Source of the DNA: an uncultured Porphyromonadaceae bacterium
GTDB lineage: Bacteria > Bacteroidota > Bacteroidia > Bacteroidales > Muribaculaceae
Assembly: GCA_947174335.1 (NCBI GenBank)
Contig: CAMWIM010000005.1
Location: forward strand, 1-64,000
Length of the DNA stretch: 64,000 nucleotides
Direction: 5' to 3'
The notes under the pieces are model-generated. The model saw nothing but the letters and a program-made list of their open reading frames with translations. It made no database searches and was not told the origin of the DNA. Both the position numbers and the translations under genes were made by a program. This document shows, in pieces, positions 5,657 to 18,772 of the stretch. The first letter of the stretch is position 1. Every line of letters begins with the position of its first letter.

Positions 5657-7768
5657 TTACTTCTTTCCGAACTTCGGGGTTATTCCGACAAAGAACTCGA
5701 AGTTGATGCCGGGCATGGGGCGCGAGAGGACTGAAAGATAGTCCTCGTTGAAGAGGTTGTTTATTGCCAGTTTGAGCTGTAAATCGAGCGATTTAAATGA
5801 CAGCCCTTTTTCAAGCGATATGTTGCTCATGTAGTATTTCGGTAGGTGTCCCGTGATTGTGTAGTCGTTGCTCGACATGGTGAACCTCTCTGAATAGTAA
5901 GCCCATTTGTAGAGAAAGCTCCATGAACGCCACGTCAGTCGTCCGGTTAGCGATGCCGAGTGCTTGGGAACGTATGGGAGCTGCTTGCCTACCGATTGGT
6001 CGGCAGGTGACATCTTCTCTCCCTCGTTGATAGACGGAGTCCATGAATATGAGCCGTTCAGGTCGAAAATCCACCCTTTGAAAGGCTCGAAGGCTATATT
6101 GAGTTTACCTTCGATGCCATAGGCGTGTACTTTTTTGACGTTGCGCGGCGAAAAGAATCCCTTGGTCGTTGGAAGCCATATAATCCAGTCATCTATATGG
6201 CTGTCAAACCATGTGGCACTGCCTCCCATTGATACAGAAAAAGGGCTCTTCCAACTCACGTCAAAAGATGCTCCTGCATCGTAAGTCCAACCATGCTCGC
6301 TCTTCAGGTTCGGATTGCCACCCGGGAGAAAATAGAGGTCATTGAGCGTAGGAAACTTGTGATTGCGTGATACGGACGCTTTCAGCATGACGTTTCCTTT
6401 CCTTGACAGAAGACCGTCGATGAAGAAAGCCGGAATGACGGGTGCCCATTTGTCGCCGAACATTTCCTGACGTACTACAAGAGACAGTCCGAGCGGATCG
6501 ACAGGCTGCCACTTTGCCGAAGCGGAGCCGGAGAGTTCGATGCGCCCCTTGTCGTAACCGACAATGGCTTTGTCGCCGTCCTGAAGGATGATGTTCTTAT
6601 CTTCGGAGCGTACAAAATGCTGATGAGCAGAGATTGTAGCGGTCAGATACCATTTTTTCGTGGGATTATACTCACCCTCTGCCTGACCATAGAATGTGTT
6701 TACCCTGCTTCGTGAGCGCGTCATTGACGACCAGTTGTTTTCAGCGACCTCTCGCTTATAATCATACGCCATCCATGTGTGGATATATCCCCCTTTGGCT
6801 CCAAATTTCCAGTTGTGGCGGATATGGTCCCACGACAGCACACTGCGCAGGGTTTGTTCGCGCTGGCGGTTCTCGAAGTTGCGCTCGTTGCCGTAGTCGG
6901 TGGTGAGCATAGGCAGTTCGCGGTTGGAATTGATATACCATGCGTTGAATCCGAAACGGTCACCCTTATTGGTGTTGTAGTACACCTCCTGCAGCGCATG
7001 AAAATCCTTGTAGGCACCGCTGCGGTTGCGTTCTGTCGGATGATACTGTCCTATTATGTTCTTGTCATCGTCATAGATGTTCTCTTTCTTGTCGTGGTTG
7101 ATATATTTGTAGTCGTTGGGCGATGATGAGTAAACGACACGTGTTGATACGTTCCAATGCTCACTGCCGTAGGTAAAACGGGCGAACTCGTCAAAGGTGC
7201 TGAATGAGCCCACACCCTGCACATATTGCAGATTGACACCTTCAGCCACATCGGGAATGGTGCCGAGTCTGACAAGACCGCCCAGACCTCCACCGGTCTC
7301 GTTGACCGATGACGTGCCGTGCAGCAGCGATGCCTGGTCTATGAAGTAGGACGGGATGGTGGAGAAGTCGGTCATGCCGAGCATGGGGTTATTGATACGC
7401 ATGCCGTTCCAAGTTACTTGTGTATGACTGGGAGAGGTACCACGGAAAGCAACAGTGGAGAGCGTGGCACGACCATAGCTCTTGACGAAGACTGATGAGT
7501 TGAACGTGAGTATGTCAGCCATCGAGAGGGCGATATTCTCTTTGAGAGCGATAGAATCGAAAGTTGTTTTTTGCACTCCGATATCCTTCATAGGGCGTTT
7601 GCCCCAAAAGACAACCTCGTGCAAATTGCGCACTCTTTGAGAAGTTTGGGCTTTAATTGATTGTACGGTCGTTGCTTGCAACGACCCCAAAAAGACTATT
7701 AGTACGGTCATTGCTCGTAACGACCCGGATAAAATCCATCGTTTTATTTTAAACAATCTTCGCTCCAT
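5657..7768 (-). CDS. btuB: TonB-dependent cobalamin receptor BtuB
   Basis: 703-residue outer-membrane receptor. A signal peptide is followed by a plug domain (~70-180: SMADILTFNSSVFVKSYG, TVAFRGTSPSHTQVTWNG) and a 22-strand-type barrel ending in a terminal aromatic-rich strand (FEFFVGITPKFGKK). There is no STN or carboxypeptidase-like extension, as expected for BtuB. It lies directly downstream of btuG in a cobalamin-riboswitch operon, the arrangement of Bacteroides btuG-btuB pairs. It should import cobalamin handed over by BtuG using TonB energy. The signal-peptide region contains two near-identical palindromic DNA repeats (listed separately). Confidence 0.93.
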   Translation of the reverse strand: MERRLFKIKRWILSGSLRAMTVLIVFLGSLQATTVQSIKAQTSQRVRNLHEVVFWGKRPMKDIGVQKTTFDSIALKENIALSMADILTFNSSVFVKSYGRATLSTVAFRGTSPSHTQVTWNGMRINNPMLGMTDFSTIPSYFIDQASLLHGTSSVNETGGGLGGLVRLGTIPDVAEGVNLQYVQGVGSFSTFDEFARFTYGSEHWNVSTRVVYSSSPNDYKYINHDKKENIYDDDKNIIGQYHPTERNRSGAYKDFHALQEVYYNTNKGDRFGFNAWYINSNRELPMLTTDYGNERNFENRQREQTLRSVLSWDHIRHNWKFGAKGGYIHTWMAYDYKREVAENNWSSMTRSRSRVNTFYGQAEGEYNPTKKWYLTATISAHQHFVRSEDKNIILQDGDKAIVGYDKGRIELSGSASAKWQPVDPLGLSLVVRQEMFGDKWAPVIPAFFIDGLLSRKGNVMLKASVSRNHKFPTLNDLYFLPGGNPNLKSEHGWTYDAGASFDVSWKSPFSVSMGGSATWFDSHIDDWIIWLPTTKGFFSPRNVKKVHAYGIEGKLNIAFEPFKGWIFDLNGSYSWTPSINEGEKMSPADQSVGKQLPYVPKHSASLTGRLTWRSWSFLYKWAYYSERFTMSSNDYTITGHLPKYYMSNISLEKGLSFKSLDLQLKLAINNLFNEDYLSVLSRPMPGINFEFFVGITPKFGKK
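7663..7726. repeat. Two palindromic direct repeats within the btuB signal-peptide coding region
   Basis: Two 25-base copies at 7663-7687 and 7702-7726, 14 bases apart, differ at about three positions. Each carries an inverted repeat: GGTCGTTGC-TT-GCAACGACC in the first (perfect 9-bp arms) and a slightly decayed version in the second. They lie in codons for the end of the BtuB signal peptide and produce the repeated residues GSLRAMTV / GSLQATTV. Confidence 0.8.
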
Positions 7769-7821: not shown

Positions 7822-8904
7822 TCATTTCCAACAAAAGGCACCGGGAATGATGCCGGCATAAAATTCATCAATCAGTTCTCCTTCAGGCGAGTATCGGTAG
7901 ATCATGCCCTGCTGCTGGTAGTCAATGGCATCGGCTACATACACTTCGCCGTTTACAGGATTTACCGTCAGCCCGTAATACTTTGTGTCGCGGTATTCGA
8001 GGAAAGGACGGACAGGAACACGGTTTGCCGTCACGTCCATACTCCAGATGTCATTGTTTATCCAATATAGTTTATCTCGTTCGCCATTGAGTTGTACTTC
8101 ACTTGGCGCATCACCGAGTTTGAATTTCCACTGTTTTTCAACTGTAAATGTCGCAGCATCAATCTTGTAGAGAGAAGGAGCCTCGTAGCCGTATGGCGAG
8201 CCTTCATAACCGCCGTCGGTGATAGTCCACATCTTATCGTTTTTATCCAGGACAAGCGACGTAGGCTGTATGCCGACCGTCAACTGGTCCACCACCTCGT
8301 CAGTCTCAGTATCTATCTTGATGATACGGTTCTGGTAGCTCCAACAGTTGCAATAGACATATTTGCCGTATTGCACCATCTGTTCCGTTGAGCCGCTTTC
8401 CATCGTCATGTCAGGCACCTGTATATAGCCAGTAATTTCATATTTCTTGGGATTGACAATGAAGATGCGGTTGTCCCAAAGCTGCGTTACGTAAGCCTTT
8501 TCATCGCTCAGGAAGTGGATATAACGCGGAGAGGTCAAATCCTCGATGCGCCCCACCTCCTTGAAAGTATTGAGGTCGATGGCAAAGATGACATGGGAGT
8601 TGTTCACCACTATCCAGCCTTTGTTGTCATAAATACTCATGGACTGAGCGACATCGCCGAGTCTCATTCCGTTTGCGCGGAAAAACACCTCGTTCTGAAC
8701 CTGATTCGTTGCCGGGTCATAATATGACAGCGTCGCATTACCATACTGAAAGTTACCCTCGTTGGTAATGAACAATCCCAATCCGGTTGCGTTAAAATCT
8801 TCCGGTTCCTCCCCGTAATCCCATTCCATGCAACCTGTCAATGACATGGTTGCATAGAATAAGATGACAGAAAAGAAAAAATTATTGCAAACCTTATTAA
8901 TCAT
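7822..8904 (-). CDS. btuG: Surface cobalamin-binding beta-propeller lipoprotein BtuG
   Basis: 360-residue lipoprotein with a type II signal peptide ending in LTGC (Cys25), followed by acidic residues as expected for surface export. The rest is a YncE/DUF5074-type seven-bladed beta-propeller. Segments such as LFITNEGNFQYGNATLSYYDP, GDVAQSMSIYDNKGW, VGIQPTSLVLDK and TDGGYEGSPYGYEAPSLY are those I recall from Bacteroides BtuG. BtuG binds cobalamin extremely tightly outside the cell and passes it to BtuB; btuB follows 53 bases downstream. Its ATG overlaps the stop of the preceding PKD gene by 4 bases. Confidence 0.92.
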   Translation of the reverse strand: MINKVCNNFFFSVILFYATMSLTGCMEWDYGEEPEDFNATGLGLFITNEGNFQYGNATLSYYDPATNQVQNEVFFRANGMRLGDVAQSMSIYDNKGWIVVNNSHVIFAIDLNTFKEVGRIEDLTSPRYIHFLSDEKAYVTQLWDNRIFIVNPKKYEITGYIQVPDMTMESGSTEQMVQYGKYVYCNCWSYQNRIIKIDTETDEVVDQLTVGIQPTSLVLDKNDKMWTITDGGYEGSPYGYEAPSLYKIDAATFTVEKQWKFKLGDAPSEVQLNGERDKLYWINNDIWSMDVTANRVPVRPFLEYRDTKYYGLTVNPVNGEVYVADAIDYQQQGMIYRYSPEGELIDEFYAGIIPGAFCWK

Positions 8905-10682
8905 TTTCCCGAAATATTTAAATCTTCAAAGCCAAAAACCTCAGTCGAAACCTCGCCAAGCCACCCGGCTTTTGAGTTCACTCCGGTTTGAACCTTGATA
9001 AAGTCGATGTATTTCAAGTTGATATGTTCTCCGTTACAATACATTGCATTTTTGATTAGGAAACCGTTGCGTTGACCCTCACCGCCTCCGGCGTTGTCGC
9101 TTGAAAGGGTGTCGCCGCCCATGTTATCGGAATATCCCCACTCAAAAAGATTGTTGTCCCACATACCGGTTGAGCTGTTCAGCACTGTACGGTCTTTAAG
9201 TCGTGTGCCTCTCAACGTATAACTATCCTCTTTTATCCAAGCTGGATAATAGTAGTCTTGACGATGAAATGCCGCCAGATAGTCGATCGAGCCGATTTGT
9301 CCTAAACAATCAACCCATTGAACATTCATTTTAGGTGCCGACGGACGGTAATATGTCACGGCATAATCGGTAAGCGTTTCGGCTTTGCCGGTTTCAGAAC
9401 CTCGAAGCTCATACCATTCATCATCAGGCAAGCCGTTGCCGTTAACGTCTTGACTGACATACACTATTCCCGGTTCATTTGAGCCACCGTCGCCGGTTGA
9501 GACATTTAAAAATGCGTTACCTTGAATTGAAAAGTCGTATGAAATTTCACGGTTTTCTATGCTGTGGTCAAACCCTACTATGATATATCCGCCGAACCCT
9601 CCGAGTGACACATATTGATACTTGTCGAGACGTTGTTCAGCCCACGTTATTGCCGCTTCATGTGTGGTTTCATCACCGGTCATACCTCCGGTTTGGTTAT
9701 CACCGATAAATTGTCCGGGTGCCGGAACCCATTCATAGACTTTATCAGATCTCGCACTGTTTGAGCCGCTCGGTTTTCTGTAGCGAGATTCTTCCGATCC
9801 GTCCACACATTTGACAATCACTGAAGTACCTGCCAAACCGTTGACTGTTAGGTTTATGACATACTCACCGGGACTGTCGGGCGTAAATGCAAATATCTCC
9901 GTGTCACATTCAACGGGACTGCCGTTTACTGACCATTCATAGTTTGTAGCTTCCAATCCTGTTATTATCGGACGTAGCATAACGGTGCGTCCGGCAAATG
10001 TATATCGTGTTGTTGAGGTGTTGAAATATGATTGTGAGGGAAATTCAAGAGTAAAGGGAAGCGTGTCAAGCAGATGAATTGTAAACTGTCTTTCATCTGT
10101 CCCATCTTCATTTGCCGTTTTTATTGTCACTACATAATCTCCGATTATATCAGAAGTGAAATGGAATGTACGTTCGGTTGAGTATGGTTTACCATCGACC
10201 AACCATTCAATTGTCAGTTTAGAATCTTCATCATCAGCATTTGCAATCTCGGGGGTGAGCATATAGTCGGTTCCGCTTTTCAATGAAATTTCGTTACCGG
10301 TAAAAGGGAGTGAGATTGTTGGCAACTTGAGGTCTATGACATCAACGCGCATTTCTTCATTGGCGCTACCGGCTTCGGTCGTTACGGTCAAATCAATATA
10401 ATGTTGCCCCGGCTCGTTCCAGGTTGCCGTGAATATAGGGTCGGTAGAAGCGACTACCTTGTCAACCCGCCATGTATATTCAGCTCCGCTGACGTTTTTA
10501 TAAATCGGTTCTATTGTCAACTCTTCGCCCACCTTCACTTCAAAAATACCTGTTTCATTATCAATGATGATTTGAGGTGCCAAGTCAGACGAAATCAGCT
10601 CATCTTTATTACAAGAAGAGAGCATTCCCCCGACTAAAATAGCCGAGAGAATGCAAATATATGAAAAGAGTTTTTTGATCAT
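8901..10682 (-). CDS. Surface lipoprotein: three PKD/Ig modules plus conserved C-terminal domain
   Basis: 593 residues; lipobox LSSC (Cys24). Three Ig/PKD-like modules follow (~35-120, 125-205, 212-295; the Y-x-W-x-V-D/N-G pattern recurs). A globular C-terminal domain (~310-593) has GGFGGYIIVGFDHSI, GDGGSNEPGIVYV, VNGNGLPDDEWYEL and KVQTGVNSKAGWLGEVSTEV. The asparagine/aspartate-rich loop VNGNGLPDDEW could bind Ca2+. It is the third gene from the end of a cobalamin-riboswitch operon, between the DUF4465 lipoprotein and btuG, so a role in corrinoid capture is likely but unproven. A close paralogue sits at 12830-14596 in the neighbouring operon. Localization is inferred: outer membrane, facing outward. 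Confidence 0.8.
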   Translation of the reverse strand: MIKKLFSYICILSAILVGGMLSSCNKDELISSDLAPQIIIDNETGIFEVKVGEELTIEPIYKNVSGAEYTWRVDKVVASTDPIFTATWNEPGQHYIDLTVTTEAGSANEEMRVDVIDLKLPTISLPFTGNEISLKSGTDYMLTPEIANADDEDSKLTIEWLVDGKPYSTERTFHFTSDIIGDYVVTIKTANEDGTDERQFTIHLLDTLPFTLEFPSQSYFNTSTTRYTFAGRTVMLRPIITGLEATNYEWSVNGSPVECDTEIFAFTPDSPGEYVINLTVNGLAGTSVIVKCVDGSEESRYRKPSGSNSARSDKVYEWVPAPGQFIGDNQTGGMTGDETTHEAAITWAEQRLDKYQYVSLGGFGGYIIVGFDHSIENREISYDFSIQGNAFLNVSTGDGGSNEPGIVYVSQDVNGNGLPDDEWYELRGSETGKAETLTDYAVTYYRPSAPKMNVQWVDCLGQIGSIDYLAAFHRQDYYYPAWIKEDSYTLRGTRLKDRTVLNSSTGMWDNNLFEWGYSDNMGGDTLSSDNAGGGEGQRNGFLIKNAMYCNGEHINLKYIDFIKVQTGVNSKAGWLGEVSTEVFGFEDLNISGK

Positions 10683-10690
10683 CTGAACGA

Positions 10691-12340
10691 TTAAATTTGA
10701 ACGGTCACATCATCATAAGCAAAGTAGGCAGGCTGGCTAAAGCCATATCCGTTATCGCTTGTACCGAGAATATTAAACTCGATTTTTGCGACTTTGCCAA
10801 GACTCGAAAGATCCCATTTTGTCCAATCTCTTACGATGTTATCGGGACCATTGCAAGTGTAAAAATATATTTCGCCCACTTTTTCGCCGCTTAAATTATA
10901 TCCGGTAGCAACGAGTTTTACCCAGTCATCAGGTCCAATTTTAGCAGTCAATCCATTGCCATTTATGTAGCAGTTCATTGCATATAATGTATTCATCACC
11001 CACATTGATTCAACAATATGCTCTTTGCCGTCACCAAATTCAAGTATTGGGAGCGCAGCATCTTTTTTATAGTCTGAGTTATCTCTATATCCATCATGAA
11101 TGGCAAAGTTTGCCGAACCATTATGCCCCGAGGTCCCATAGACAGCAAGCTGATGAGCCGAATTACCGTCAGCAAGCTCGGTACTTGCATAGTTTGAAAT
11201 AGCATGACCTCCGTTCCAATAGCAATACGATCCGTAAGCCTCTGATATTGAATGTTTGAGCTCGGTGTTACCTTTGTCATACCAATAATATGGTTCATCC
11301 ATGCCATATCCCGAATCTCCATATAGCATGGGACCGCCATATTGTTTATTGTCGATAAGGTCAGACCATGTTTTAATGGTTTTAGAGCAATAATCGAGAG
11401 TATAGGCGGGGAATTTGGCATCAGCATCTTCAAATGTTAGTACGCGACGCTCAAAAGTAGCTACCGGCATTCTCACAATCATACTTGATCCTTTTGTCGA
11501 GATAACGGTTATGTCGATAGTCCCTTCTTGCTCGGCATATTTATTATCTTCAGCCGGAGCCTTAACCGTTAGATTGTTGTCGTCAAAAGATACACGCCAT
11601 CCATCGGGTTTGCCTATTGTGTAAGACGCTACATTTGAGGTCTCGACTTTATAGGTCTTGCTTTCTCCCTGACGAATAACTTGGATGCCCTCGGCATTTT
11701 CAATAGAAAACAAAGGAGTTTCTCCATTAAAGTGCTTTACACTGAATTTTGTGCCGTCGGCAAGTGTAAATTCAACATAGTCGGGGTTGGTCGTATCAAC
11801 TTTTTTGAATAAAGATTCTCCACTTTCATTTTTAGCTGAGACTCCGGTCGATTCCCATGTTTCACCGCCGTCGGTTGAAATTTCCCAACAGTTATCCGAT
11901 GTATTAATTCTTATTTGAGGTGCGATAGCATTGGCTCCGTCAACGCCGGTTGCTTTTACTTTTTCACCGTCAACAGTGAGCCATTCTCCATTGATTGTCC
12001 AATAGTATTGACCGTCTTCATCTTTTTTTATTGAGATTTCAGGCGTTGCAACTCCGCCGGTAGTCGTCGAAATGGTTGCATTAGTACCATCTGAAAATTT
12101 AAGGGTATAACCTCCTTCGGTTTTCTCGATAGATGTAATGGAGATGTTGTTTTGGGCAGCCTCAAGAAGAGATTGCAAAGTTTTGATATTTGTGTTCGTC
12201 TGAGTTGATGCTTTCTCAAGGGTTTCAACTCGATTTTCAATGCTGTTTACGGCATCCCAGATGTTTGAATCATCATAACTACATGCTGTTGGCAGAAGTA
12301 TAGCCGCAGCAATTGATAAAATTAAAATTGGCTTTCGCAT
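10691..12340 (-). CDS. DUF4988 / DUF4465 surface lipoprotein, BtuH-like
   Basis: About 549 residues from ATG 12340, chosen because MRKPILILS begins a clean lipoprotein signal with lipobox PTAC (Cys20). A short coiled coil (NSIENRVETLEKAS..., DUF4988), glycine/threonine-rich repeat modules (~65-200), an Ig-like segment, and a C-terminal DUF4465-type domain (~310-549: SAHQLAVYG, WVKLVATGY, WDLSSLGKVAKIEF, PAYFAYDDV) follow. I recall that the surface cobalamin-binding BtuH lipoproteins of Bacteroides carry a DUF4465 domain, so this is the best BtuH candidate here. It is the first gene after the riboswitch and terminator hairpin; the next gene starts 8 bases downstream. Confidence 0.78.
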   Translation of the reverse strand: MRKPILILSIAAAILLPTACSYDDSNIWDAVNSIENRVETLEKASTQTNTNIKTLQSLLEAAQNNISITSIEKTEGGYTLKFSDGTNATISTTTGGVATPEISIKKDEDGQYYWTINGEWLTVDGEKVKATGVDGANAIAPQIRINTSDNCWEISTDGGETWESTGVSAKNESGESLFKKVDTTNPDYVEFTLADGTKFSVKHFNGETPLFSIENAEGIQVIRQGESKTYKVETSNVASYTIGKPDGWRVSFDDNNLTVKAPAEDNKYAEQEGTIDITVISTKGSSMIVRMPVATFERRVLTFEDADAKFPAYTLDYCSKTIKTWSDLIDNKQYGGPMLYGDSGYGMDEPYYWYDKGNTELKHSISEAYGSYCYWNGGHAISNYASTELADGNSAHQLAVYGTSGHNGSANFAIHDGYRDNSDYKKDAALPILEFGDGKEHIVESMWVMNTLYAMNCYINGNGLTAKIGPDDWVKLVATGYNLSGEKVGEIYFYTCNGPDNIVRDWTKWDLSSLGKVAKIEFNILGTSDNGYGFSQPAYFAYDDVTVQI

Positions 12341-12377
12341 AATGATATAGTTTATAAAAGTAATACGCAAAAAAAGT

Positions 12378-12420
12378 CCCGTCCGCGTAAACTACGGGAA
12401 AACGTAGAATTGCGGACGGG
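12378..12420 (-). terminator. Intrinsic terminator in the leader of the BtuH-BtuB operon (riboswitch attenuator)
   Basis: In the transcript CCCGTCCGC pairs with GCGGACGGG (9 bp), with an inner stem CTACG/CGTAG, and is followed at once by AC and seven T (+ strand A-run 12369-12375). It sits between the cobalamin riboswitch and the first ATG (12340). This is the layout of a riboswitch-controlled attenuator. Confidence 0.8.
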
Positions 12421-12493
12421 AAAATATTTTACATATCAAATCGGAAATATAAAATCAATCCGACATCATCAGTTGACTGCCTGAAATTGTGTG

Positions 12494-12740
12494 ACCCATA
12501 GACCCGCAGGTACGTTTTAAAAACAATTAGATAATGGCAGGTCTTCTGACTTATCCCGGTTCAATCGCGCCTTCCCGGTCTTACGGAGACCAGTGGCAGG
12601 TTGCGAAAAACCTTGTTCAATAACGAATTTACATCGTAAAAGAACGGGAATTACAGCAGCGGGTACTGTCGAGGAATCACACCTCGTTCCCTTTTGATGC
12701 TCCTTTACGCCTCCACTCTTGGACGGCAGAGCAACCATCG
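12494..12740 (-). ncRNA. Cobalamin riboswitch 1 (upstream of BtuH/PKD/BtuG/BtuB operon)
   Basis: On the minus strand the conserved landmarks appear in order: GGTTGCTCTGCCGTCC; GGTGTGATTCC; ACAGTACCCGCTGCTGTAA; GCCACTG; GGGAAGGC; and the B12 box AGTCAGAAGACCTGCC. These are the core of the adenosylcobalamin riboswitch family. The L5 segment ACCCGC (+ strand 12659-12664) is fully complementary to GCGGGT in a downstream hairpin loop (12502-12507), the expected L5-L13 kissing contact. The RNA should lower expression of the uptake operon when cobalamin is plentiful. End positions are approximate. Confidence 0.95.
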
Positions 12741-12744
12741 GGTA

Positions 12745-12752
12745 CAAAGGTA
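12745..12752 (-). promoter_or_regulatory. Promoter -7 element for riboswitch 1 transcript
   Basis: TACCTTTG on the minus strand lies ~8 bases before the first conserved riboswitch bases, as expected for the Bacteroidota -7 box. The upstream TTG nearest to it is at 12778-12780, 25 bases away, so the -33 element is poor. Confidence 0.55.
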
Positions 12753-12829
12753 CGGTAAAAAAATTTAATATACGGTTCAAGAATCTTAAATAATATTAAT
12801 AATTATCGGCATTTTGGTGATAGACTCTT

Positions 12830-14596
12830 TCATCTCTCCGACATATTCAGGTCTTCAAAGCCAATGACCTCGGTTGAAACCTCACCAAGCCAACCGGCTT
12901 TTGCGTTTACGCCGGTCTGAACCTTTATAAAGTCGATATATTTGAGATTTACCGCCGTTTGATTGGCATACATAGCGTTGGCTATCTTGAACCCGTTACG
13001 CTGGCCCCCCGAAATCGCCTTGACAACATCGCTGCCCATGTTGTCAACATAACCCCGGTCATATTTCCATAGCTCCCAGTATCCCGTTGACGAGTCCATT
13101 GTCACTCGCGATTCAAGACGGGTGCCGCTCAGCGTGTAGCTTTCATCCGTTATCCATGCCGGATAATAATAGTTTTGGGTATGATAGTCGGCAAGATAGT
13201 CTATTGTTCCCGACGCGCCCAGGTTGTCGGTCCACTGAACATTCATCCGCGGAGCCGACGGACGGTAATATGTCACGGCATAGTCGTGAATTGTTTCAGG
13301 CTTCCCGGTTTCAGAACCTCGCAGTTCATACCATTCGTCATCGGGCAAGCCGTTGCCGTTGACATCCTGCATGACATACACGATTCCGGGTTCATTTGAG
13401 CCACCGTCTCCGGTCAGAGCGTTAAAAAACGCATTACCCGACACCGCAAAATCATACTCGGCGCTTCCTTTGGCTATACTGTGGTCAAAGCCCACGACTA
13501 TATAGCCACCAAAGCCCCCGAGCGACACAAAATTATTATCTGCCAATCGCTTCCGTGCCCACTCATTGGCACTCTCAAGCGTTGTTTCGTTGCCGGTCAT
13601 GCCTCCGGTCCGGGTCTCGCCTATAAACTGGCCGGGAGCCGGAATCCATTCAAAGACCTTGTTACATGTCGCCAGACTCGATGCTGTGGCTGCACGGTAA
13701 CGCGATTCTTCGCTGCCGCTGACACACACGACCTTCACGCTCGCCGACACTCCGTTGTCAACCGTGACCGTCACCTGATAGTCACCCGCCACGTCGGGAG
13801 TGAACATGAACACCGGCTCGCTGCACTGTTGCTTCACACCGTTAACCGTCCAGCTCCATTGGGTTGGCGCGATGCCGTTGGCTATCGGCTTCAGACAAAC
13901 GCTCCTGCCCGCAAACGTGTACCGGTCGGTCGATTCGAAAGAATACCCGGGGGTGGGGAACGAGAGCTTTTCAGGCAGTTTGTTAACTACGGTGATTAAA
14001 AATTCGCGGGTATCACTGCCGTCGATATTACAGGCGGTCACACTCACTCTGTATTCTCCCGTCTCGGCAGCATTGAACGTGTAGGTCAGTTCGTGTCCAA
14101 CCTCTACGCTGTTCACGCTCCACGTCACGCCAAATCCCTCGATATTACTGTTGCTTATCTCGGGGGTCAGTACATAATCGGTATTCTTGGCAATAGTCAG
14201 CCCTTCGTCACCCACAGGCAACGATATCACCGGTTTTGCCAAATCAACCACCTCCACGAGCAACTCCTCTAAAGCGTGACCGTCGTTGGTCGATACCACA
14301 ATAGTAATATAATATTTACCCGTGACATCCCACGTATAGGTCAGCACCGGTGTAGTTGCTATCGTCTTGCTGTCGATTTTCCATTGATAAATCGCTTCGG
14401 CTCCACAGTTTTTATAAACCGGAGCTATTTTAATCTCGCGGCCTACTTTGGTAGTGTAAACACCTGTTTCACTGTCAATTTCAATCTCAGGAGCCGCTTT
14501 AACCTCGATTACATCGTCTTTTGTACAAGAAAAAAGGAGTATTGTCCCTGCCAAAAAAGCCGGAACAATACTCTTCATGATTACAGATGGTTTCAT
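12830..14596 (-). CDS. Surface lipoprotein: PKD/Ig modules plus conserved C-terminal domain (paralogue of 8901-10682)
   Basis: 588 residues; lipobox LFSC (Cys24; ATG 14578 would also give a good signal peptide). Three PKD/Ig-like modules are followed by the same C-terminal domain as the 593-residue protein (GGFGGYIVVGFDHSI, GDGGSNEPGIVYVMQDVNGNGLPDDEW, YYRPSAPRMNVQW, VKVQTG-type ending with GWLGEVSTEVIGFEDL). The two proteins are clearly duplicates, diverged mainly in the Ig modules. This is the last gene of the second riboswitch operon. No terminator is visible between its stop and riboswitch 1. Function unknown; corrinoid capture is inferred from the operon. Confidence 0.8.
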   Translation of the reverse strand: MKPSVIMKSIVPAFLAGTILLFSCTKDDVIEVKAAPEIEIDSETGVYTTKVGREIKIAPVYKNCGAEAIYQWKIDSKTIATTPVLTYTWDVTGKYYITIVVSTNDGHALEELLVEVVDLAKPVISLPVGDEGLTIAKNTDYVLTPEISNSNIEGFGVTWSVNSVEVGHELTYTFNAAETGEYRVSVTACNIDGSDTREFLITVVNKLPEKLSFPTPGYSFESTDRYTFAGRSVCLKPIANGIAPTQWSWTVNGVKQQCSEPVFMFTPDVAGDYQVTVTVDNGVSASVKVVCVSGSEESRYRAATASSLATCNKVFEWIPAPGQFIGETRTGGMTGNETTLESANEWARKRLADNNFVSLGGFGGYIVVGFDHSIAKGSAEYDFAVSGNAFFNALTGDGGSNEPGIVYVMQDVNGNGLPDDEWYELRGSETGKPETIHDYAVTYYRPSAPRMNVQWTDNLGASGTIDYLADYHTQNYYYPAWITDESYTLSGTRLESRVTMDSSTGYWELWKYDRGYVDNMGSDVVKAISGGQRNGFKIANAMYANQTAVNLKYIDFIKVQTGVNAKAGWLGEVSTEVIGFEDLNMSER

Positions 14597-14617
14597 TAAA
14601 TTATTACAATAATCTCA

Positions 14618-16753
14618 TTACCATTCGTCAAAATTGTAGGTAAACCATATACCTGCGGGCCACGAAGCGCCACTGACGCTATATTTGTTTATCTGCTCGA
14701 GAACCCCGCCGCTAAAGTCATATTCATTAATCTGACCGACGTACAGCGTTCCTTTTGCTTCATTATAGGCAAAAGCGTTATAGAACGATACCGAGTTCAT
14801 CGTGGTGGCGGTGTTGGTTTCAAAGTGATATTTTACAACCGGGCTTCCTGAGGTTCCGAAGAAGATATAATCGCTACCTACACTCACGGCGTGAGGTGAC
14901 ATTGCCGAGCTTTCACCCTGAACTATTCGTGCCGATTTCTGTGCCACGAGCTTCATGTCAGAGGTAAGTTTGGCTATCGTTTTCTGATTATCGCTCAAAT
15001 CTGATATCGCCCATACGCTTCCATCGCGGCTCGGCAATAATTCAGCGATGTTAAAGTCAAGCGTAAGCACCTTTTCGCCGATTTTATGGTTGGCGACATC
15101 TACAATATAAATATCTTGCTTGATTGCAGCGTATGCTTTCCCTTTACGGACAACGTAGGCATTTACACTCTTTCCTCCTCCTTCGGGGAAAATCATCTGC
15201 TCGTATGTACGGTTAACCATATCAAGCACGCCGTTAGTACTACCATTTACCGCATCCGCGCTGTTACTACTCTTGAGAATGGCATAACGCTCGTTTGGCA
15301 CATAAATTTCGCGTGGCCATGCGATTTTCCTTTCAAAGAAATCTCTGTCATAAGAATCGATCTTCTTCATGGTGCGTCCGTCCATAATTGTAACGAGACC
15401 GCCGCCGTTGGGCACGCCGTATGCCGTGTTCTGACCATTCTGTGCAACAATATAAATCTTGCGGTCACGCAGGAACAGACCCTGACTTACGTTGCCGAGC
15501 TGGGCACCACCGTTGTTTTCACGGAAAAGTTTGTTATAAACAGTTCCGCCGTCACTGATAAACGAGATCGCTCCGTTTTCACTTGTCATGTTACCCTCAA
15601 AAAGAAGGAAAGCTCCGCTGGCATAGCGCTCGGTTATCTTGATGGTCTTTTCAAACGGATATTTTTCATCACCGCGGCTAATCACAAGATTTATCTTAAA
15701 CACCTTGCCAATCTCGGTCGAGCCGGGGAAAGTATAGTCCTTATCGGTTGAAACGACCTTGCCGTCAACGCTCCACTCATATTTCGCATTTTCCCAGTCA
15801 CAGACCGCATTAAGAGTTATAGTTTCACCCTCGCCTATCTCGGTTTCAATGCCGGCAAGACGGAGTCCGAATCTAAAGCCTGCATTATAAACATTAACCG
15901 TTTGCTTAGCCTCAAATTCCTTGCCGCTGGGATTAGCCACAATAAGGCTCACTTCATAATCACCCGGTTCAAGTTTGACAAAATCAAGTGTAGCCGAATC
16001 ACTCTCCTGTTTTCCGTCAACAAGCCATTTATATGATGCCACTGAATCGCCGGCGACGGTTGAAACGAGTTTCAGTATTTCTCCACATTCAACCTTGGCT
16101 TCCTCAGCCTCGGGCAACACTATAGCCACATCAATCGGTCCATACTTTACATCGACTGTAAACTCATCGGTTGCCTGACCCAATATATTGGAAACGGTGA
16201 GGCTCACCTTGTGAGTACCGGTAAATGGAGTGTAGAAGTCAAGATCCTTGTCGGTCGATGTCCAGGTTGAGTCCTTGCTCTCGACGGTCCATAGATAATC
16301 GACATTGTGCAGGCTGTGGACATTTGCCTTTATTACTGTGGGATTATATCGCATAAGCTCTTCGCCGGCAGTGCGGTCTATTGCCACTGCGATATCGGTG
16401 CCCGGTTTTACCACAAGCACCTGGGTCTCGGCTGTGGCAACACCTTTATTGTTTTTGGCGGTCACGCTGAGGTTATAGACACCCTCGGCATTTTTGCGGA
16501 AGACATACGCGCGGTCGGTTGCGACCTCCTTACCGTCGACTGTCCAGCTATAAGTTAGAGGGTCAGTACCTGTTACTTTTATTTCGGGGGCGAGAGTTTC
16601 GTTTATCTCAACCGAAAATCCGTTTTCAGGCTCCACAAACTGCACCGCCGGAGCCACGCCATAATTATCGTCATCATCGTTGCTGCATGAAGTCATGACA
16701 CTGCACGACATCACCGCAAGAAGAAGCAGATATAAATATTTTATTTTTTTCAT
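14618..16753 (-). CDS. Surface lipoprotein: Ig/PKD repeats plus BtuG-like beta-propeller
   Basis: 711 residues; lipobox MTSC (Cys23) followed by a run of Asp residues. Four Ig/PKD modules (~35-110, 115-203, 205-290, 293-375, each with a Y-x-W-x-V-D-G-K-type core) lead to a C-terminal DUF5074/YncE-type propeller (~378-711: FLLFEGNMTSENGAISF, LGNVSQGLFLRDRKIYIV, WPREIYV, SPHAVSVGSDYIFFG). The propeller resembles BtuG in its opening, but the stalk of Ig modules makes the protein twice as long. It is the middle gene of the second cobalamin-riboswitch operon. It probably displays a corrinoid-binding head away from the membrane; binding itself is not shown. Confidence 0.78.
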   Translation of the reverse strand: MKKIKYLYLLLLAVMSCSVMTSCSNDDDDNYGVAPAVQFVEPENGFSVEINETLAPEIKVTGTDPLTYSWTVDGKEVATDRAYVFRKNAEGVYNLSVTAKNNKGVATAETQVLVVKPGTDIAVAIDRTAGEELMRYNPTVIKANVHSLHNVDYLWTVESKDSTWTSTDKDLDFYTPFTGTHKVSLTVSNILGQATDEFTVDVKYGPIDVAIVLPEAEEAKVECGEILKLVSTVAGDSVASYKWLVDGKQESDSATLDFVKLEPGDYEVSLIVANPSGKEFEAKQTVNVYNAGFRFGLRLAGIETEIGEGETITLNAVCDWENAKYEWSVDGKVVSTDKDYTFPGSTEIGKVFKINLVISRGDEKYPFEKTIKITERYASGAFLLFEGNMTSENGAISFISDGGTVYNKLFRENNGGAQLGNVSQGLFLRDRKIYIVAQNGQNTAYGVPNGGGLVTIMDGRTMKKIDSYDRDFFERKIAWPREIYVPNERYAILKSSNSADAVNGSTNGVLDMVNRTYEQMIFPEGGGKSVNAYVVRKGKAYAAIKQDIYIVDVANHKIGEKVLTLDFNIAELLPSRDGSVWAISDLSDNQKTIAKLTSDMKLVAQKSARIVQGESSAMSPHAVSVGSDYIFFGTSGSPVVKYHFETNTATTMNSVSFYNAFAYNEAKGTLYVGQINEYDFSGGVLEQINKYSVSGASWPAGIWFTYNFDEW

Positions 16754-16761
16754 TGTCTCTG

Positions 16762-18660
16762 TTAATTTCTATATATGTATTGATAAATGTAATTCGGTCT
16801 TGACGTCTCAAGTTTATTAAGTATTGTTCCGGGATCTTTAACCGAATAGATACCTACAACACTCCCACCAAAATATTTATCTCGCCAGTGAGCAAGAATG
16901 ATTCCATCAGGCATTATCTTGAAATTCTCTGTTGACTCATTCATTACATAATCGCTATATGGGGTTGCCTGATTGTGTGAGTTTATATCGGCAATATAAT
17001 TGAATGGTCTGTCTTCTTCCTCCGACTCGAGCTGAATACGTCCGACAAATCCGTCGTTGCATGTGTAGACATAACCATTATAAATAGACATATTACGTGC
17101 ATACAAACGACTGCTATCTTTTTCACCATAGAACATAGTCCGTTCTCCTGTCAAAAGGTCATAACAAATCATATAAGATGAATTGCTTTGGAAACGTATC
17201 AGCTTGTCATCACCAACAGCATACGTTTCTCTTTTATCCATATTTGAAAGGTAAAAGTCGCTTTTTGTATAAAGGAGCGCCCCGGTTGAGCCGTTAAAGG
17301 CACTCATTTCTTTACCATTGCATATCAAGAATATACGACCATTATGAGAAAAAATAGTATTAAGCGTTGTTTTATCCTCAAGATCAAAAATGCGTTTCTT
17401 CTCTCCGGTATTAGGATCAATCATATAAAGTCCATCAAGATCCTCACCCTTGTATTGATTATCGGTAATTTTTACCGCATAAAAGATATTGTCGTTTGCA
17501 ATAGCCATTTTACCGGTTCCTACTGCGCCTTGAAACGAAATTTTCACCTCTTTCAGCTGATGTAATGTCTTCAGGTCAATAACACTGAATGTTCGTTCTG
17601 CGGTACGGCTTGAACCGGAGATTACATTTTTACTTGCTGATTGATATACAAAATACTTGTCATTATAATCTGAGGTTGCATTGAAACTAACTTTATCAAC
17701 GTCTACGTCAGGGTTAGCCGCAGTATACACGTTCATAGTAAGACGCCCGGCATAGTCGACAAAATGGAAATCTTTTTGAGAAACTATATATGAACCATAT
17801 TGTGTCACGTTGTGAACATCGACAGTGACTTTGGTACTTGCGGTCTGGGTCGGGTCGGTAACCTTGAGAGTAACCTCAACCAAGTCGAGATTCTCGCCGG
17901 GTAAAGTATAATCCTGCTCGGTGCCGACAACTTTACCGTTTACAATCCACTCATACTGCACGTCACTGATGCGATTGGCTTCGCCATGAAGAGTGAGAGG
18001 AGTGCCCACCGGAGTGCGGAATCCATATTCAGGCTCATCAATAGCCACGTCAAGAACAGGCACGTTAACTTTGATTTCAATATCGTTGGTAGCAAATTTT
18101 CCGTTTGCATCAAGAGCCTTGAATGTCACTTTGTGGACACCCTCTTTGAGAGCTTTGAATACATAGTAATGCTCTTTTGACACTCGTTTGTCGTCAATAA
18201 GCCATTCAACCTCATAGTCCTCGCGACAGAACACATTACCGCGGAGCACGAGTGAATCGAGATATTCAATTTCGGGCTTACGATCTCCGACAACCGATAT
18301 AGAGGCGTCGATCTCGCCACGGGCAACGAGGACATTAGCAGCATCGGTGGCAGTGCCGTTTTCAGCAATTACAGTAAGTTTTACGGTGTTGTTTCCGGAT
18401 TCTTTACCCTCAAAATGGAGTACACGCTCGGTTGATACCTTAATTCCGTTAACACTCCATTGATAGGCGGCGCCGGTATCGGCATTTTTCACGTTAGCCG
18501 AGATGTCGATCGATTCGCCAAGGGCTACCGATAGCCCTGCCTCAGGAATCTGGATTGTCACTTCGGGAGGCAATACATATTCCGTCTCCTTACACGACAT
18601 CAGATTCATCACTGCGAGATACATTATCAAAGATCCCGCCAATTTAAAAATTTTACTCAT
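16762..18660 (-). CDS. Surface lipoprotein: Ig/PKD repeats plus divergent beta-propeller
   Basis: About 632 residues from ATG 18660 (MSKIFKLAG), which gives a lipoprotein signal with lipobox LMSC (Cys23). The frame extends further upstream, but that part runs through the riboswitch leader hairpin and is not a signal peptide. Three Ig/PKD modules (~30-110, 115-195, 198-290) precede a C-terminal region of repeated four-stranded units (IDLKTLHQLKEVKIS, DGLYMIDPNTGEKKRIF, NMSIYNGYVYTCNDGF) typical of a beta-propeller. It is the first gene after riboswitch 2. Substrate unknown; riboswitch control suggests a corrinoid. The next gene begins 8 bases downstream. Confidence 0.75.
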   Translation of the reverse strand: MSKIFKLAGSLIMYLAVMNLMSCKETEYVLPPEVTIQIPEAGLSVALGESIDISANVKNADTGAAYQWSVNGIKVSTERVLHFEGKESGNNTVKLTVIAENGTATDAANVLVARGEIDASISVVGDRKPEIEYLDSLVLRGNVFCREDYEVEWLIDDKRVSKEHYYVFKALKEGVHKVTFKALDANGKFATNDIEIKVNVPVLDVAIDEPEYGFRTPVGTPLTLHGEANRISDVQYEWIVNGKVVGTEQDYTLPGENLDLVEVTLKVTDPTQTASTKVTVDVHNVTQYGSYIVSQKDFHFVDYAGRLTMNVYTAANPDVDVDKVSFNATSDYNDKYFVYQSASKNVISGSSRTAERTFSVIDLKTLHQLKEVKISFQGAVGTGKMAIANDNIFYAVKITDNQYKGEDLDGLYMIDPNTGEKKRIFDLEDKTTLNTIFSHNGRIFLICNGKEMSAFNGSTGALLYTKSDFYLSNMDKRETYAVGDDKLIRFQSNSSYMICYDLLTGERTMFYGEKDSSRLYARNMSIYNGYVYTCNDGFVGRIQLESEEEDRPFNYIADINSHNQATPYSDYVMNESTENFKIMPDGIILAHWRDKYFGGSVVGIYSVKDPGTILNKLETSRPNYIYQYIYRN

Positions 18661-18735: not shown

Positions 18736-18772
18736 ACTCCCGCCTTTGGGTTGAAATATCAAAGACGGGAGT
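18736..18772 (-). terminator. Terminator-like hairpin in the leader of riboswitch operon 2
   Basis: Transcript ACTCCCGTCTTTG pairs with CAAAGGCGGGAGT (13 positions, one mismatch), followed by an imperfect U-rich tract (TCCTTATTTT). It lies between riboswitch 2 and ATG 18660, in the same place as the strong terminator of operon 1. The weak U-tract means it could act on translation instead. Confidence 0.55.

Follow-up and report, generated by a model that had tools for sequence, protein, structure and literature searches.

Two operons under cobalamin riboswitches lie in series ahead of btuG and btuB in a 64,000-nucleotide stretch of DNA from an uncultured Porphyromonadaceae bacterium (the whole stretch is called the window here). 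The question raised by this locus is what its large stalked lipoproteins do and whether the C-terminal domain shared by two of them is, as a preliminary description had proposed, a little-described corrinoid-binding or corrinoid-releasing module. In Bacteroides thetaiotaomicron (B. theta), corrinoid is captured by BtuJ and BtuH and handed on by BtuG, which caps BtuB (PMC10404256; PMC12751083). Very probably, the locus serves corrinoid scavenging of this known Bacteroidales BtuB-BtuG type, with the following components (proteins are designated by their length in amino acids): (i) 593 and 588, of the BtuH2 type; (ii) 559, of the BtuJ type; (iii) 711, a propeller protein; and (iv) 632, an accessory protein, the whole being arranged in stacked cassettes.

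All seven genes, from 18660 to 5657, are real open reading frames on the minus strand (Table 1), and the order of transcription is 632, 711, 588 and then, after riboswitch 2, 559, 593, BtuG and BtuB. A longer version of the 632 gene, which starts at an upstream TTG (666 aa), is over-long and the 632 aa start is preferred. In the four proteins with PKD_3 modules (632, 711, 588 and 593), a lipobox Cys at about residue 23-24 is followed by acidic residues, which is the surface-export pattern of the B12-uptake system (PMC10404256), and these proteins would be exposed at the cell surface. Corrinoid binding by BtuG is well supported. PADLOC gave no hits. The gene content, the export signals and the stalk-and-head layout of the four lipoproteins are as originally described.

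Table 1. Features of the two riboswitch operons, in the direction of transcription
Feature	Position	Strand	Basis
Bacteroidetes-type promoter, exact TTTG-N19-TAATTTTG, at riboswitch 1 start	19098-19068	-	promoter pattern
Cobalamin riboswitch 1	19075-18869	-	Rfam RF00174, 111.7 bits
Terminator-like hairpin, between riboswitch 1 and 632 gene	18736..18772	-	dG -21.5 kcal/mol, z -5.5
632 aa lipoprotein, 3 PKD_3/Ig modules + C-terminal head of ~340 aa	18660..16762	-	Pfam PKD_3 x3
711 aa lipoprotein, 4 PKD_3/Ig modules + DUF5074 beta-propeller head	16753..14618	-	Pfam DUF5074 3e-30
588 aa BtuH2-type lipoprotein, 3 PKD (Pfam PKD_3) + BtuH B12-binding domain	14596..12830	-	PDB 7BIZ 2.5e-157
Cobalamin riboswitch 2	12754-12519	-	Rfam RF00174, 93.1 bits
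-7-like element TACCTTTG at riboswitch 2 start	12752-12745	-	sequence
Terminator-like hairpin, between riboswitch 2 and 559 gene	12377..12421	-	dG -26.5 kcal/mol, z -6.4
559 aa BtuJ-like lipoprotein, DUF4988 stalk + DUF4465 B12-binding domain	12370..10691	-	Pfam
593 aa BtuH2-type lipoprotein, 3 PKD (Pfam PKD_3) + BtuH B12-binding domain	10682..8901	-	PDB 7BIZ 9.7e-153
BtuG, 360 aa, seven-bladed propeller, BtuB lid	8904..7822	-	PDB 8BMX chain D 2.1e-198
BtuB, 703 aa, TonB-dependent corrinoid transporter	7768..5657	-	PDB 8BMX chain C, 1174.9 bits

Both riboswitches score well above the RF00174 gathering score of 31.5, and both strong hairpins, each located between a riboswitch and the first gene of its operon, have a U-rich tail. 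Such an arrangement looks like a riboswitch-controlled terminator (attenuator-like) and, together with the Rfam matches, agrees with the riboswitch control initially claimed for both operons. The Muribaculaceae MAG that contains the window has four cobalamin riboswitches. On its contig C8 (L007:5786-12515), a second B12 locus has its own cobalamin riboswitch, BtuB, BtuF-like and BtuC-like genes, and two BtuG-like lipoproteins of ~400 aa in tandem, the first of which is the only one with a DUF5074 match. On contig C51 (L008:2772-5801), a cobalamin riboswitch precedes two genes, one for a protein that matches Meth_synt_2 weakly (the cobalamin-independent type of methionine synthase) and one for a transporter of the DASS/CitMHS type.

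As regards the domain shared by 593 and 588, a phmmer search of solved structures matched both proteins to PDB 7BIZ over two PKD domains plus the whole C-terminal domain. This entry is B. theta BtuH2 (BT_1956), published in 2022, crystallised with cyanocobalamin and with its ligand contacts listed; the B12-bound structure has a PKD-PKD-PKD-head architecture (PMC8941943). Like BtuH2, to which they are 53% (593) and 57% (588) identical, the two proteins have three PKD/Ig domains followed by the same C-terminal B12-binding domain, and are encoded in a riboswitch locus adjoining btuG-btuB. In the alignment, Q333, N399, F401, H476, W511, W577 and L578 of BtuH2 are kept in both proteins; the remaining contact, Y510, is kept in 588 (8/8 contacts) and replaced by Met507 in 593 (7/8), which thus has a Met in place of a Tyr that hydrogen-bonds the ligand. 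Apart from this Met, the window differs from the BtuH2 case in having two paralogues, 55% identical to each other, one per riboswitch operon.

Homology, contact residues and a cobamide transport locus (two RF00174 riboswitches, BtuG and BtuB) concur in assigning the shared domain to BtuH, and the motif quoted for it, GGFGGYI-VGFDHSI ... VNGNGLPDDEWYEL, is part of BtuH. It is extremely improbable that the domain represents a new corrinoid-binding or corrinoid-releasing module: its location in riboswitch operons and its distinctive common motif may invite such a reading, but the homology to BtuH2 covers the entire crystallised construct, including the stalk architecture and the ligand residues. 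Since domain and motif belong to the published BtuH, the novelty of the domain is refuted and the label "little-described" falls (PMC8941943). On the other part of the proposal, corrinoid binding by the BtuH domain of 593 and 588 is strongly supported by the 7BIZ homology and the contacts. Corrinoid binding by BtuH has been shown only for B. theta BtuH proteins (PMC8941943; PMC12751083). Furthermore, in a survey of riboswitch co-occurrence, 36 of the 43 BtuH domains examined had a cobalamin riboswitch on the same strand, no more than 10 kb upstream; the genomes were a non-random sample, picked for BtuH or related proteins and not for riboswitches, and chance placement would give about 1%, as estimated from 3-7 riboswitches per 3-4 Mb.

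The 559 aa protein, previously called BtuH-like, had its name swapped: DUF4465 is the BtuJ domain, and B12 binding has been published across this family (PMC12751083; PMC13398666). Pfam finds DUF4465 (1.8e-39) and DUF4988 (1.4e-30) in 559, and the matching PDB entries are BtuJ1 (9FCT, 2.9e-07) and BtuJ2 (9I2L, 0.0024). As in BtuJ1 and BtuJ2, its DUF4465 has the conserved HI-loop Tyr (SQPAYF, near residues 545-550), and the NTLY motif is also present; unlike them, it has an extra N-terminal DUF4988 stalk. Its gene comes first in a riboswitch operon, ahead of BtuH, as does B. theta btuJ2. Taken together, these features identify 559 as BtuJ-like, and its predicted corrinoid binding is well supported. 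In G058, one of the related genomes, two reading frames of 399 and 183 aa (L197:10574-12254) take the place of an intact BtuJ gene, as if a frameshift had split it; gene decay or an error in the sequence could be the cause.

In the genomes compared, three arrangements of these genes can be distinguished: (i) riboswitch-632-711-BtuH588-BtuG-BtuB (L005 and L187); (ii) riboswitch-BtuJ-BtuH593-BtuG-BtuB (L197); and (iii) both cassettes in series ahead of one BtuG-BtuB, as in the window. The third arrangement is also seen in L006/L188, which spans all of the second cassette but only the final part of the first; L189, a different contig from the genome that contains L188, matches the start of the first cassette. 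Over 6.1 kb, cassette A shares 94.5% identity with L187, as against just 80% in the adjoining BtuG region and 86% in BtuB; the BtuJ-BtuH593-BtuG segment is 90.6% identical to L197. The double operon is apparently a concatenation of two alternative cassettes which related genomes carry singly, and cassette recombination would be the simplest reading of the three arrangements; instead, cassettes may have been lost from a double-cassette ancestor.

This leaves 711 and 632, the sole proteins of the locus without a direct characterised counterpart. Of the two beta-propeller heads attributed to them beforehand, that of 711 is borne out by DUF5074, and that of 632 only weakly so. A profile of the 711 subfamily matches BtuG structures at 3e-27, and hhalign gives 99.9% for BtuG and 98.9% for BtuK1. 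The 711 head is thus a remote homologue of BtuG2 (PDB 8BMX, 3DSM) over most of the propeller; unlike BtuG2, 711 has a four-module PKD stalk and its locus also encodes a separate true BtuG. The comparison with BtuK1 and BtuK2 (BT_1486 and BT_1487; PMC12751083), assigned here by gene order only in locus L230 (K-K-H-B-GH-J, as in BT_1486-1491), is similar: these are also riboswitch-operon lipoproteins with an Ig-like stalk and a propeller head, and the first of them (probable BtuK1) has a full DUF5074 head (1.1e-86), but each has one Ig-like module as against four in 711. The possibility that 711 is the BtuK1 orthologue was rejected, despite the similar architecture, on profile scores: 711 scores 155 bits with a stalked-DUF5074 model built without it and 15 bits with the BtuK1 model, so its head is not closest to BtuK1. 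By these profiles, 711 belongs to a third branch, related to BtuG and to the probable BtuK1 and distinct from both. PDB 9S6C ("quinoprotein amine dehydrogenase-like") also matches the 711-subfamily profile and might be BtuK1; a literature search found no paper naming this entry.

A scan of the genome collection with 711 returned just two close relatives, both from Muribaculaceae. Across Bacteroidales, nine of the ten 711 relatives checked have a same-strand cobalamin riboswitch 0.6-7.3 kb upstream, and in several families such relatives adjoin BtuB, BtuG or BtuH. In other cobalamin-riboswitch loci (L177:3646-5772, L179:3184-5298 and L198:9200-11113), DUF5074 heads are carried on DUF4988 stalks; since such heads occur on DUF4988 as well as on PKD stalks, stalk types appear interchangeable. 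With respect to the BtuG2 pocket, a remote alignment shows Y335 clearly kept in 711 and W194, Y239 and Y316 not kept, W272 being ambiguous in a column that aligns poorly even within BtuG. The absence of most named pocket residues counts against binding in a BtuG-like pocket; corrinoid binding by 711 is plausible nonetheless.

The 632 head matched no Pfam family, gave a weak hhalign value against BtuG (70%) and yielded nothing convincing against BtuG, BtuK or stalked-DUF5074 profiles, so it can be called propeller-like only weakly. Across 198 order-level genomes, no convincing relative of 632 was found (one match, at 29%, is borderline), and on this sampling the head occurs in close relatives only. 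For both heads, 711 and 632, the AlphaFold models computed from two near-identical sequences were unusable (pLDDT 37). Genome G009 has a riboswitch match that falls slightly short of the cut-off (31.2 bits); the first gene behind it (L194:6019-8031) encodes a Big_5 protein of 670 aa that does not resemble 632, and BtuH, a BtuL-like LRR gene and BtuG follow downstream.

Another candidate counterpart was BtuL (BT_1955), the first to be considered because it is a lipoprotein of ~700 aa from the B. theta locus; its domain content is absent from the text of the paper (PMC12751083). It was located through loci that encode the crystallised BtuH2 domain with 100% identity, in which a 696 aa Receptor-L/LRR protein lies between BtuH2 and BtuG. 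The BtuH2 domain is 100% identical at the protein level in the genomes of five Bacteroides species (L226-L229 and G789:C1:2624714-2625577), which suggests recent horizontal transfer of the BtuH2 locus. Since BtuL is a Receptor-L/LRR protein, 711 and 632, whose heads are DUF5074 or family-less on PKD stalks, are not BtuL, in spite of being lipoproteins of similar size from a cobalamin-riboswitch locus.

Neither BtuL, which has an effect on vesicle release, nor BtuK2, despite its similarity to BtuK1, binds cobalamin (PMC12751083); because of these two cases, neither fold nor membership of a riboswitch locus guarantees binding. Accordingly, 711 and 632 might bind no corrinoid and help otherwise, by promoting vesicle release (as BtuL does) or by docking on the BtuBG complex. 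This is a serious though minority possibility, which gains from the precedent of BtuL, from the pocket residues missing from 711 and from the lack of an LRR BtuL gene in either operon of the window (open reading frame list and Pfam), so that another protein could take the BtuL role; it loses from the fact that BtuL shares no domain with 711 or 632 and that B12 is bound by BtuG and by BtuK1 (assigned by synteny), which are closest to the 711 head among the proteins tested. It is unlikely that the heads instead bind a target that would bring B12 near, for example a protein by which the host carries B12, the glycans of mucin or some other protein of the surface: the long Ig stalks and, for 632, the narrow taxonomic range would fit a fast-evolving adhesin-like head, and BtuG2 is reported to take B12 from intrinsic factor (PMC6143338), but Pfam finds no lectin or adhesin family and the ligand is speculation. 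The broader proposal that stalked DUF5074 propellers form a separate class of surface corrinoid carriers, besides BtuG, BtuH, BtuJ and BtuK, and that in this genus whole carrier cassettes are swapped and stacked before one BtuG-BtuB, has slightly less than an even chance of being right.

For the corrinoid-scavenging locus as a whole, the following course can be proposed. When cobalamin is low, both riboswitch operons would express their surface lipoproteins, which, on long Ig stalks, would catch corrinoids and pass them to a single BtuG-BtuB gate served by two parallel capture cassettes. In this process, 593 and 588 would act as BtuH2-type carriers and 559 as a BtuJ-type carrier; the 711 propeller probably holds corrinoid as well, and 632 would be an accessory protein of the B12-scavenging locus, which may or may not bind corrinoid.

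In any case, the assignments of BtuH, BtuJ and BtuG carry the published B. theta system over to this Muribaculaceae genus. They also remove a false "unknown domain" lead, and stalked DUF5074 heads and cassette stacking remain as the items of interest. Gut communities are shaped by competition for B12, and the Bacteroidales hold an open-ended set of proteins for its capture.
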